Of a stretch of 64,000 bases of DNA, positions 16,585 to 18,850 are shown piece after piece. Numbering within the stretch: position 1 is the first letter of the stretch; every line of letters begins with the position of its first letter. The stretch is from Novosphingobium sp. AAP83. GTDB taxonomy: Bacteria > Pseudomonadota > Alphaproteobacteria > Sphingomonadales > Sphingomonadaceae. Made by a program: the position numbers and the translations under genes. Location: NCBI RefSeq assembly GCF_001295795.1, contig NZ_LJHY01000022.1, positions 248,001 through 312,000 on the forward strand, in the 5' to 3' direction. The notes beneath the pieces were generated by a model. The model was given only the letters and a program-made list of their open reading frames with translations, was not told the origin of the DNA and ran no database searches.

Positions 16585-17490
16585 TTAGGCTGGTACTGCG
16601 ATCTTGTTGGTTGATCCAGCGTAGATATCGTCAATCGCGGCGCCAAGCGCTGCATCGAATTCCGCGTCGGTCATCTGGTGGCGCAGGTCTTCCAGAAGGG
16701 CGCGGCTGAAGCTGGCGATGATGCCGGTGTTTTTGGCCAGTTCCACGCAAGCTTCGGGGCGCTTGTAGCCACCCGAGAGAGCAACAACGCGCAGCACCTT
16801 GGGATGCGACACCAGCGGATCGAAGGTGCAAGGCGCAACGGGCAGCGAAAGCTTGAGCATGACCTGCACGCCTTCGGGCAGCGCGTCCAATGCCTTGAGG
16901 ATTTCGTCGAGCAGGATCGTGTCACATTCGGCGCGGGTGGCGCTCTTGATGTTCACTTCAGGTTCGATGATTGGCATCATGCCGTGGCCAAGCACCTGCA
17001 TGCCGACTTCGAACTGCTGCTTTACTACAGCGGCGATGCCTTCGCGGTTGGCCGAATTGATGACCGAGCGTTCCTTGGTGCCGAATACGCCGAGCGCCTT
17101 TGACCGGGTGAGAAGTTCGTCAAGCGTTGGCATCGGCTTCATCAGTTGGACGCCGTTTGCTTCGTCCTCAAGACCTTTGTCGATCTTGATGAAAGGAACC
17201 ACGCCCTTTTCGATCAGCGCCTGTGGTACAGACTTGCCATCCACCATGCCGTCCATCGTGCGTTCGAACAGGATCGCGCCGATCACCTTTTCGCCGTGGA
17301 ACACATCGGAGCTGATGATGCGGGCGCGCATACCGTGAATCAGACCGAACATTTCTTCTTCGGTGGTCCAGGCATCTTCGGTGACGCCGTACCCTGCCAG
17401 TGCCTTGGGGGTGGAGCCGCCCGACTGGTCAAGAGCGGCGATGAAGCCGTTACCGGAGGCCATCTTTGCGGTCATTTCGGTCGTGTTCAT
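16585..17490 (-). CDS. fda: Fructose-bisphosphate aldolase, class I
   Basis: Splits fructose-1,6-bisphosphate to GAP and DHAP through a Schiff base. The 301-residue protein opens GNGFIAALDQSGGSTPKALAGYG, the signature of bacterial class I aldolases, and carries PFIKIDKGLE, GMMPIIEPEVNI and VMLKLSLP with the candidate Schiff-base lysine. It is near tkt-gap-pgk on the same strand but is separated from pgk by 172 bases that hold a hairpin and an operator-like cluster, so it is probably transcribed and regulated on its own. Confidence 0.93.
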   Translation of the reverse strand: MNTTEMTAKMASGNGFIAALDQSGGSTPKALAGYGVTEDAWTTEEEMFGLIHGMRARIISSDVFHGEKVIGAILFERTMDGMVDGKSVPQALIEKGVVPFIKIDKGLEDEANGVQLMKPMPTLDELLTRSKALGVFGTKERSVINSANREGIAAVVKQQFEVGMQVLGHGMMPIIEPEVNIKSATRAECDTILLDEILKALDALPEGVQVMLKLSLPVAPCTFDPLVSHPKVLRVVALSGGYKRPEACVELAKNTGIIASFSRALLEDLRHQMTDAEFDAALGAAIDDIYAGSTNKIAVPA

Positions 17491-17537
17491 GAGCCCATCC
17501 TGTGTTCATTGAAGCCCGGAATACAGGCTCCGCATAC

Positions 17538-17583
17538 CTATGCGCCAGTGCGCCAAAATAATGCGCCAATAATTGGCGCATAG
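17538..17583. promoter_or_regulatory. Operator-like cluster of TGCGCCA half-sites upstream of fda
   Basis: Three direct TGCGCCA copies (17541, 17549, 17562) and one inverted copy (ending 17580). CTATGCGCCA at 17538-17547 is a perfect inverted repeat of TGGCGCATAG at 17574-17583, and TGCGCCAAT / ATTGGCGCA at 17562-17580 forms a second, 19-base palindrome. The cluster starts 48 bases before the fda ATG, where a regulator or promoter would act. Confidence 0.6.
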
Positions 17584-17605
17584 CTATTCGTTGACTCGCC
17601 ATAAT

Positions 17606-17636
17606 AAGGCGCGTGCCGCAGTGCAACACGCGCCTT
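17606..17636 (-). terminator. Hairpin downstream of pgk
   Basis: AAGGCGCGTG (17606-17615) pairs perfectly with CACGCGCCTT (17627-17636), a 10-bp stem, 27 bases past the pgk stop. The minus-strand 3' side is only moderately T-rich (TTATTATGG), so termination may be partial. Confidence 0.55.
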
Positions 17637-17662
17637 TAAAAAATCATCAACGCAGCCGAAAT

Positions 17663-18850
17663 TTATGCAACAAGGGCGGCAACACCGGGCAATTCCTTGC
17701 CTTCCATCCATTCCAGGAAAGCCCCGCCGGCGGTCGATACATAAGAAAAGTCTCCGCCAACACCAGCGTGATTAAGCGCCGCAACGGTATCACCGCCGCC
17801 CGCTACTGAAACAAGCGAACCTTCTTTGGTCAGCGCAGCCGCGGTGCGCGCAAGCGCGACAGTGGCGGCGTCAAACGGTTCGGTTTCAAACGCACCCATT
17901 GGTCCGTTCCAGACCAGTGTCTTGCAGGTTTTGAGGACATCGGCCAGCGCCTCGACCGCAGTCGGGCCGACATCGAGGATCATCTCGTCCGCTGCCACTT
18001 CATGGACATTGCAGGTACGCAGGGACGCCGGATTTGCGGCGAATTCCTTTGAAACCACAACGTCATAAGGCAGGTGGACGGTGCAGCCTGCTTTATCAGC
18101 GTTGTCGAGGATTTCGTCTGCCGTGGCGGTGAGATCATGTTCGCACAGCGATTTGCCGACGGCGACGCCGCGGGCGGCAAGGAAGGTGTTGGCCATGCCG
18201 CCGCCGATGATCAGGTGATCGACTTTGCCCACCAGATGCTTGAGCACGTCAAGCTTGGTGGAAACCTTGGCACCGCCGACAACGGCTGCCACCGGATGCT
18301 CGGGCTTGCCCAGCGCCTTTTCAAGCGCAGTCAATTCAGCTTCCATCGCGCGTCCGGCAAATGCGGGCAGCACGTGGGCAAGGCCTTCGGTTGAAGCATG
18401 CGCGCGGTGCGCGGCAGAGAACGCATCGTTGACATAGAAATCGCCAAGGCTGGCAAAGCGTTCGATCACGGCGGGATCGTTCTTTTCCTCGCCACCGAAA
18501 AAGCGGGTGTTTTCAAGGATGGCGATATCGCCAGCCTTCAGCGCGGCGACGGCTTCCTTGTCGCCTTCCCAATCGATGAAGCTGACCGGACGGCCCAGCA
18601 CTTGCGACAGCGGTGCGGCAAGCTTCCTGAGCGAGAACTCTTCGGAAGGCTCGCCCTTGGGGCGTCCGAAATGCGCCAGAACGAGCACTTTTGCACCCTT
18701 GTCTGACAGTTCGTTGAGCGTCGCGACGGTGGCGCGCAGGCGGGTGTCATCGGTGACAAGGCCATCAGCCATCGGCACGTTCAGGTCTTCGCGGACGAGC
18801 ACGGCCTTGCCGGTGACATCGCCAATATCGTCAAGGGTTTTGAAGCTCAT
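17663..18850 (-). CDS. pgk: Phosphoglycerate kinase
   Basis: Glycolytic/gluconeogenic kinase making ATP from 1,3-bisphosphoglycerate. The 395-residue protein has the N-terminal [17 protein letters not shown] and [10 protein letters not shown] substrate-binding segments, [24 protein letters not shown] and [12 protein letters not shown]. The ATG (18848-18850) overlaps the stop of the upstream MOSC gene in an ATGA, so translation is coupled. It is the distal gene of tkt-gap-MOSC-pgk. Confidence 0.97.

Follow-up and report, generated by a model that had tools for sequence, protein, structure and literature searches.

Results

Organization of the region upstream of fda

The window, by which we mean the whole 64,000-nucleotide stretch that was analysed, comes from Novosphingobium sp. 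AAP83, whose genome (G000) comprises 4.23 Mb in 84 contigs and whose relatives within the GTDB genus are mostly named Novosphingobium. The region of interest lies between pgk and fda, the latter being the presumed target of the elements described below (Table 1). The aldolase gene was identified by matches to NF003784 (458.8 bits; cut-off, 392) and to the class I family Pfam PF00274 (32.3 bits). The name pgk was based on gene length and on a partial match to the best NCBIfam model, a bifunctional pgk/tpi model (440.8 bits, below the cut-off of 883).

Table 1. Features of the pgk-fda region, in window positions
Feature	Positions	Strand	Remarks
fda, class I fructose-bisphosphate aldolase	16585..17490	-	presumed target
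O2, proximal operator	17532..17543	-	GCATAGGTATGC read toward fda; core YGCATASSTATGCR; 41 nt from fda start codon
TGCGCCA cluster	17538..17583	.	made up of hairpin arms and the inner halves of both operator copies
T-rich tail of terminator-like hairpin	17553..17560	-	TATTTTGG; stem end to O2, 17 nt
Terminator-like hairpin, presumed fda leader	17561..17581	-	ATGCGCCA...TGGCGCAT; 9 pairs (scan); the second palindrome
O1, distal operator	17578..17589	-	GAATAGCTATGC, degenerate, one mismatch from GCATANNTATGC; 46 bp between the centres of O1 and O2
Promoter-like element	17598..17626	-	TTGCAC (17621-17626), 17-bp spacer, TATGGC (17598-17603); presumed fda driver
Hairpin downstream of pgk	17606..17636	-	overlaps fda promoter-like element; -25.1 kcal/mol, z -5.4
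pgk, phosphoglycerate kinase	17663..18850	-	upstream neighbour, same strand as fda

A cluster of TGCGCCA repeats ends 47 bases from the fda ATG (17490, - strand). Its description in a preliminary account was borne out by inspection: there are four exact TGCGCCA half-sites (17541-17547, 17549-17555, 17562-17568 [+] and 17574-17580 [-]), a perfect 10-bp inverted repeat in which CTATGCGCCA at 17538-17547 pairs with TGGCGCATAG at 17574-17583 across 26 bases, and a second palindrome, TGCGCCAATAATTGGCGCA, at 17562-17580, which is perfect in a 9+1+9 arrangement. The window contained 49 copies of TGCGCCA against 28.7 expected from shuffled sequences, and none of 20,000 random placements of 49 uniformly distributed points, a simple null, put four points within 46 bp. 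These results confirmed that the cluster is real and more than chance.

In the same account the cluster was said to look like an operator, its regulator being dedicated to the aldolase or to central carbon flux. The kind of element was very probably recognized correctly, but the site was not, as TGCGCCA is not conserved upstream of fda. Phylogenetic footprinting, which had been proposed as a check, found at least three copies upstream of fda in only 3 of 111 genus genomes (the window genome, G231 and G189) and exactly two in 3 more; the remaining 105 lacked two or more, as did all 68 further Sphingomonadaceae genomes. The 19-base palindrome was present in the window genome alone among the fda upstream regions compared, and a genome-wide search allowing up to three mismatches returned its own locus and two others, both with three mismatches. 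TGCGCCA was accordingly rejected as the operator, being absent upstream of fda in relatives and absent elsewhere in the genome. Each end of the cluster overlaps a copy of a different palindrome (GCATACCTATGC, 17532-17543; GCATAGCTATTC, 17578-17589), and the 10-bp inverted repeat is composed of the inner halves of these copies plus the hairpin arms. Comparison of sequences indicated that the conserved element, a putative operator, is GCATASSTATGC, which lies mostly outside 17538-17583 and overlaps the fda-proximal end of the cluster.

A conserved palindrome downstream of a promoter-like element

GCATASSTATGC is an even-length palindrome with symmetric half-sites, the form that is typical of LacI-family operators. 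Within the window alone the palindrome GCATNSSNATGC was not beyond chance (2 occurrences versus 1.7 expected). In relatives, the copy nearest fda read GCATAGGTATGC, GCATACGTATGC, ACATACGTATGC or GCATACGAATGC. A footprint profile was built from 90 of 93 regulator-bearing regions, selected by site match with the three regions without a site omitted; in these 90 fda regions six core columns were invariant (C, A and T at positions 2-4 and A, T and G at 9-11), and information content was 1.0-2.0 bits in the core and fell to ~0.1-0.4 bits a few bases outside. Counterparts of O1 were detected 65-68 bp from O2, as exact copies in ten genomes (G268, G273, G187, G276, G308, G196, G123, G206, G249 and G143) and with one mismatch in four (G309, G248, G188 and G152).

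A strict sigma-70 scan of the fda upstream region found no promoter. A pattern consisting of TTGCNN, a 16-17 bp spacer and a TATGG- or TAAGG-like hexamer was observed 4-18 bp upstream of the operator (mode, 9) in 50 of the 90 regions, the pattern having been picked after the regions were viewed and the other 40 being unmatched. If the element in the window drives fda, O1 would occupy about +3 to +14 of the putative transcript. An operator covering the transcription start is the usual position for a repressor. The preliminary description regarded the cluster as separate from the pgk hairpin, which is not quite so, in that the loop and tail of this hairpin contain the presumed fda promoter hexamers; within 17598-17636, the -35-like TTGCAC is inside the 3-base-loop arm of the hairpin and the -10-like TATGGC follows the stem.

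The same palindrome upstream of zwf and glpX

Exact copies of GCATANNTATGC were rare, with 61 sites in 20 genus genomes (2-5 per genome), and a reversed control pattern gave 4 in total. Forty-three of the 61 were upstream of fda (22 sites in 18/20 genomes) or zwf (21 sites in 19/20 genomes); the remaining 18 were elsewhere, several of them within coding sequence. Sites in coding sequence were not counted as operators, an example being GCATATCTATGC in G289, G188 and G189, where the flanks are common; for L423, L425 and L436 no long frame was listed across the site and coding status was judged from the shared flanks.

All 30 zwf upstream regions fetched contained GCATAC[T/A]TATGC. The gene that follows the site is zwf (TIGR00871), which shares its operon with edd (TIGR01196), a pgl-like frame and a glucokinase-like gene that scored slightly under its cut-offs. 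The end of the operator was separated from a -10-like hexamer resembling TCTAGG by 24 nt in 28 of 29 genomes and by 25 nt in the other (L180); 29 of the 30 loci were profiled, and L165 was read afterwards. Two operators 13 bp apart, GCATAGCTATGC and then GCATACTTATGC, were observed at zwf in the window genome (L145:13880-13904; also L165), G231 and G189, and many relatives carried a decayed upstream copy, GCATAGCTATCC.

At glpX (TIGR00330), 20 of 30 genomes had a site that was judged real, within one mismatch of GCATNNNNATGC and resembling GCATACGTTTGC or GCATACGTCTGC; 20 of the 30 loci were profiled, with a consensus chosen after viewing. A convincing glpX site was missing in 8 of 28 regulator-bearing genomes, and neither of the two genomes without the regulator described below (G200 and G175) had one.

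Further occurrences were noted as leads. In the window genome, TCATACCTATGC lies upstream of an ATP synthase delta gene (L154:2209) and GAATACGTATGC spans codons 2-6 of the pyruvate phosphate dikinase gene (L149:2602), each a single-genome observation. Two genomes (L426:1249 and L428:1256) had exact GCATAGCTATGC upstream of an MFS transporter gene of the glucose/galactose type, at a distance of 62-77 bp, the one transporter scanned scoring 0.5 bits below cut-off. In G273 (L420:1245), exact GCATACGTATGC separates a GH13-like gene from a LacI paralog whose helix is VSQPTVSRALRG; the site precedes the paralog frame by 78 bp, and the paralog may read a similar site. A single genome (G165; L431:1264) had exact GCATAAGTATGC 78 bp upstream of a sucC-containing frame, sucC being a tricarboxylic acid cycle gene listed for the PckR and GluR regulons in the cited part of PMC4052901.

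Co-occurrence of the site with an orphan LacI-family regulator

Five LacI-family proteins are encoded by the window genome. The candidate regulator (G000:C8:353829-354854) is outside the window, just downstream of a glyoxalase II-like gene and not beside sugar genes. It matched PF00356 (53.2 bits; cut-off, 27) and PF13377 (99.7 bits; cut-off, 26.5), corresponding to a LacI helix-turn-helix and a periplasmic-binding-protein-like sensor domain. The helix-turn-helix reads RVTSFDVAEAAGVSQSTVSRALAGD, and the recognition helix VSQSTVSRALAG was almost unchanged in orthologues.

The distribution of the regulator was compared with that of the fda site in 111 genus genomes with an fda hit and a fetched upstream region, 106 of which were within a 149-genome regulator search; of the five outside, four (G123, G143, G134 and G130) were tested later and G111 separately. 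With up to one mismatch allowed, the site was present in 60 of 65 genus genomes with the regulator versus 3 of 41 without it, and with up to two mismatches in 64 of 65 versus 5 of 41. The three regulator-negative genomes with a site at up to one mismatch are assemblies that are 80-90% complete, from which the regulator gene may merely be missing. The association was repeated in a family-wide sample of 69 genomes, one of them in the genus, with proportions of 23/25 versus 2/44 at up to one mismatch and 23/25 versus 6/44 at up to two. In the four genomes whose site had been scored before the regulator was looked for, the two agreed in every case, both being present in G123, G143 and G134 and both absent in G130.

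Exceptions were found in both directions. The regulator occurred without an fda site in G290 (71% complete), G047 and G103. An exact site was present in G077, which has only a 38% homologue, a two-mismatch site in G006, which has a 41% paralog, and a site in G092, whose 46% homologue is below the cut. An fda tree of 88 proteins had 9 changes of regulator label on the best tree and provided 3 independent contrasts on supported branches; on average 1.9 of the 3 agreed with the association and none was contrary, a number with which a sign test cannot reach significance. The phylogenetic independence of the association is weak.

The other LacI-family proteins were also considered. All 21 genomes examined in which the regulator was the sole LacI hit had the site, against 3 of 25 with a paralog hit only, these three being the same 80-90% complete assemblies. 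A LacI paralog of 38-42% identity, whose helix-turn-helix was VSQPTVSRALRG in the seven checked (L410-L415 and L419), was rejected as the fda regulator, its presence not tracking the site. Four more were set aside as local regulators, with neighbour names read from the sequence by eye: a sucrose-cluster protein near zwf (L163; helix-turn-helix, VSAGTVSRALAG) and the proteins beside an altronate-dehydratase-like gene (L159), a glucosidase gene (L160) and a xylulokinase-like gene (L161).

No operator was detected within 4.5 kb around the regulator gene, where the only match with up to two mismatches, GCATCGATCTGC, is downstream of the gene, and autoregulation was set aside on this ground. The regulator was present in ten genus genomes without an fda hit at E <= 1e-60 (G141, G146, G157, G172, G185, G190, G208, G232, G240 and G171) and is thus retained where an fda-type aldolase is absent or diverged.

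A terminator-like hairpin between the two putative operators

A terminator scan of 17440-17720 detected one terminator-like site, against 0.3 expected. The predicted structure, at 17561-17581 plus its tail, has the form of an intrinsic terminator, with a GC-containing stem followed by a T-rich tract. The fold of 17553-17589 had an energy of -12.8 kcal/mol (z -3.2), and an Rfam search gave no match above threshold. From the sequence, the TGCGCCA arms appear to be a lineage-specific terminator-like hairpin between two copies of the operator.

In 14 relatives the hairpin position was occupied by a stem of unrelated sequence, GACGC...GCGTC, again followed by a T-rich tail. The distance from the end of this stem to O2 was exactly 18 nt in 14 of 14, whilst the loop, the outer stem and the spacing to O1 varied; in the four genomes with the other stem (the window genome, G231, G189 and G289) the distances were 17, 17, 17 and 18 nt. 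In an alignment of the 14 sequences, one stem pair varied with pairing preserved (C-G, G-C and T-A), and changes at the neighbouring pair mostly preserved pairing as well. Fold energies had z values of -3 to -5 in 13 of the 14 genomes and -1.8 in G152, and in the four window-like genomes they were weak or not unusual (-2.1, -1.2, -2.0 and +0.2). In most folds of the 14 relatives, TGCGCC/GGCGCA arms formed an outer stem round the inner hairpin, and hence the TGCGCCA arms of the window would be a remnant where the inner hairpin is missing. An antiterminator formed by the 10-bp inverted repeat, which was favoured by the full leader fold, was discounted, as the proximal hairpin is the first to form.

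Discussion

We consider with good confidence that the region is the regulatory leader of fda and carries a LacI-type operator of a central-carbon regulator, which is most likely the orphan LacI-family protein, and that the operator is a repressor site. The operator YGCATASSTATGCR would act through two copies, of which O2 is good and O1 degenerate. As these are just downstream of the promoter-like element, a protein bound there would obstruct transcription at initiation or early in elongation, and hence we infer repression. The protein bound would most likely be G000:C8:353829-354854, and by analogy its effector may be a sugar phosphate.

Three LacI-family regulators of central carbon metabolism, namely, PckR, GapR/CceR and GluR, have been described in Alphaproteobacteria (PMC4052901, PMC5507952); the descriptions cited concern Rhizobiales, Rhodobacterales and Caulobacterales, and the cited part of PMC4052901 mentions no sphingomonads. 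CceR/GapR is likewise a global regulator of Entner-Doudoroff and gluconeogenic genes, is not clustered with its targets and has zwf-pgl and fba among them (PMC4052901, PMC5507952), but it is described there for Rhodobacteraceae with a 20-bp palindrome, the comparison here being by description. In Paracoccus it represses glycolysis and activates gluconeogenesis, according to the cited part of PMC11323563, whereas only repression is likely at the fda site. The 18 NCBIfam hits of the candidate regulator were all below cut-off, and no CceR/GapR model was among them. GluR and PckR were also compared by description. GluR of Caulobacter has zwf-pgl-edd-glk, ppdK and sucABCD as targets (PMC4052901), to which zwf-pgl-edd-glk and the single-genome leads at ppdK and sucC correspond here. 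Unlike gluR, which is described as immediately downstream of the zwf operon, the present regulator gene is on contig C8 and the zwf operon on C15, and the same source, in the part cited, gives no GluR orthologues in other Alphaproteobacteria (PMC4052901). PckR is a dual regulator of zwf-pgl-edd, fba, pckA and tricarboxylic acid cycle genes (PMC4052901) that is ascribed there to Rhizobiales only, and pckA was not among the sites seen here. HexR of Gammaproteobacteria controls zwf, edd, eda and glk in the cited account (PMC5343134) but has an RpiR-family fold and another motif, the present candidate belonging to the LacI family. Searches of the literature matched only unrelated papers for GCATACGTATGC and nothing on the palindrome for LacI regulation in Novosphingobium or sphingomonads, among the matches listed. 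By analogy, the regulator would work like CceR, PckR and GluR, and we file it under none of them.

The sign of control may differ between targets. Repression is favoured for fda and glpX, and zwf may be activated or repressed. The spacing between hexamer and operator varies at fda, as blocking allows, and this fits repression. At zwf, the 24-nt distance to the hexamer would place the operator centre near -42.5, a position used by activators and repressors alike, and so activation would fit as well as repression. A related Novosphingobium has no phosphofructokinase and a full Entner-Doudoroff set, according to the cited part of PMC10866074, and its aldolase would therefore serve sugar synthesis or a cycle, not glycolysis proper. 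A regulator that holds zwf-pgl-edd-glk, fda and glpX repressed as a set, and is released by a sugar phosphate, would follow HexR-type logic on genes of a cyclic Entner-Doudoroff route. This uniform mode is a real possibility that we rate somewhat short of even: sites are present at all three loci, the zwf site abuts the -35 position and the gene content of the related strain is in keeping with it. Against this, the near-constant spacing at zwf and the lack of a good -35 there suit activation, and the variable spacing at fda suits repression, in which case control would be reciprocal.

Three other explanations were weighed against the preferred reading of an fda operator bound by the orphan regulator. 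One concerns the hairpin, which may act with O2 as a clamp. On this account transcription of fda would start at the promoter-like element and pass through the hairpin, and repressor bound at O2 would stall polymerase in the T-rich tract while the hairpin releases the RNA, making a leaky terminator efficient; repression would then combine a block of initiation at O1 with roadblock-assisted termination at the hairpin and O2. The reading uses roadblock distances and resembles intrinsic terminators and roadblock repression in its hairpin, T-rich tract and DNA-bound protein just downstream. The occurrence in 18 genomes (14 + 4) of a hairpin and T-rich tract flanked by the operators, the constant (14 relatives) or near-constant (the other four) distance from stem to O2, the pair-keeping changes, the fold energies in 13 of the 14 relatives and the scan result in the window all speak for it, and an architecture that outlives its sequence suggests coupling of terminator and operator. 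The folds in the four window-like genomes speak against it. The 14 genomes are close relatives, whose constant spacing may be inherited, and the hairpin may do no more than stop read-through from pgk, or may be left over from a tandem duplication of promoter and operator, all of which are simpler explanations than coupling. We regard the clamp as unlikely; among the matches listed, no report of an operator at a fixed distance from a terminator hairpin was found. If true, it would mean that one protein controls both initiation and termination at fda and would show how a repressor can exploit a terminator by simple means.

Slightly more doubtful still is the proposal that the hairpin terminates pgk and has no further role, and that the palindrome belongs to another regulator, which shares the phylogeny of the orphan LacI protein by chance. 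The weak phylogenetic independence and exceptions such as G077 leave room for it, but the four forward predictions held, the family-wide sample repeated the association and the site has the even, symmetric form of a LacI-family operator. The TGCGCCA half-sites are themselves most improbable as the operator of a separate regulator. Their clustering is nonrandom and perfectly symmetric, and the two nearest relatives retain three to four copies; the absence of two or more copies from nearly all the genomes compared, the want of a second genomic place below three mismatches for the full 19-base palindrome and the folding of the arms into a hairpin with a T-rich tail count heavily against that role.

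By analogy with CceR/GapR, PckR and GluR, the site is probably the operator of an undescribed central-carbon regulator of the Sphingomonadaceae. Lignin aromatics are degraded by Novosphingobium and its relatives, which must alternate between using sugar and making it from aromatics, and a candidate site, a regulator gene and three target operons make this switch directly testable.
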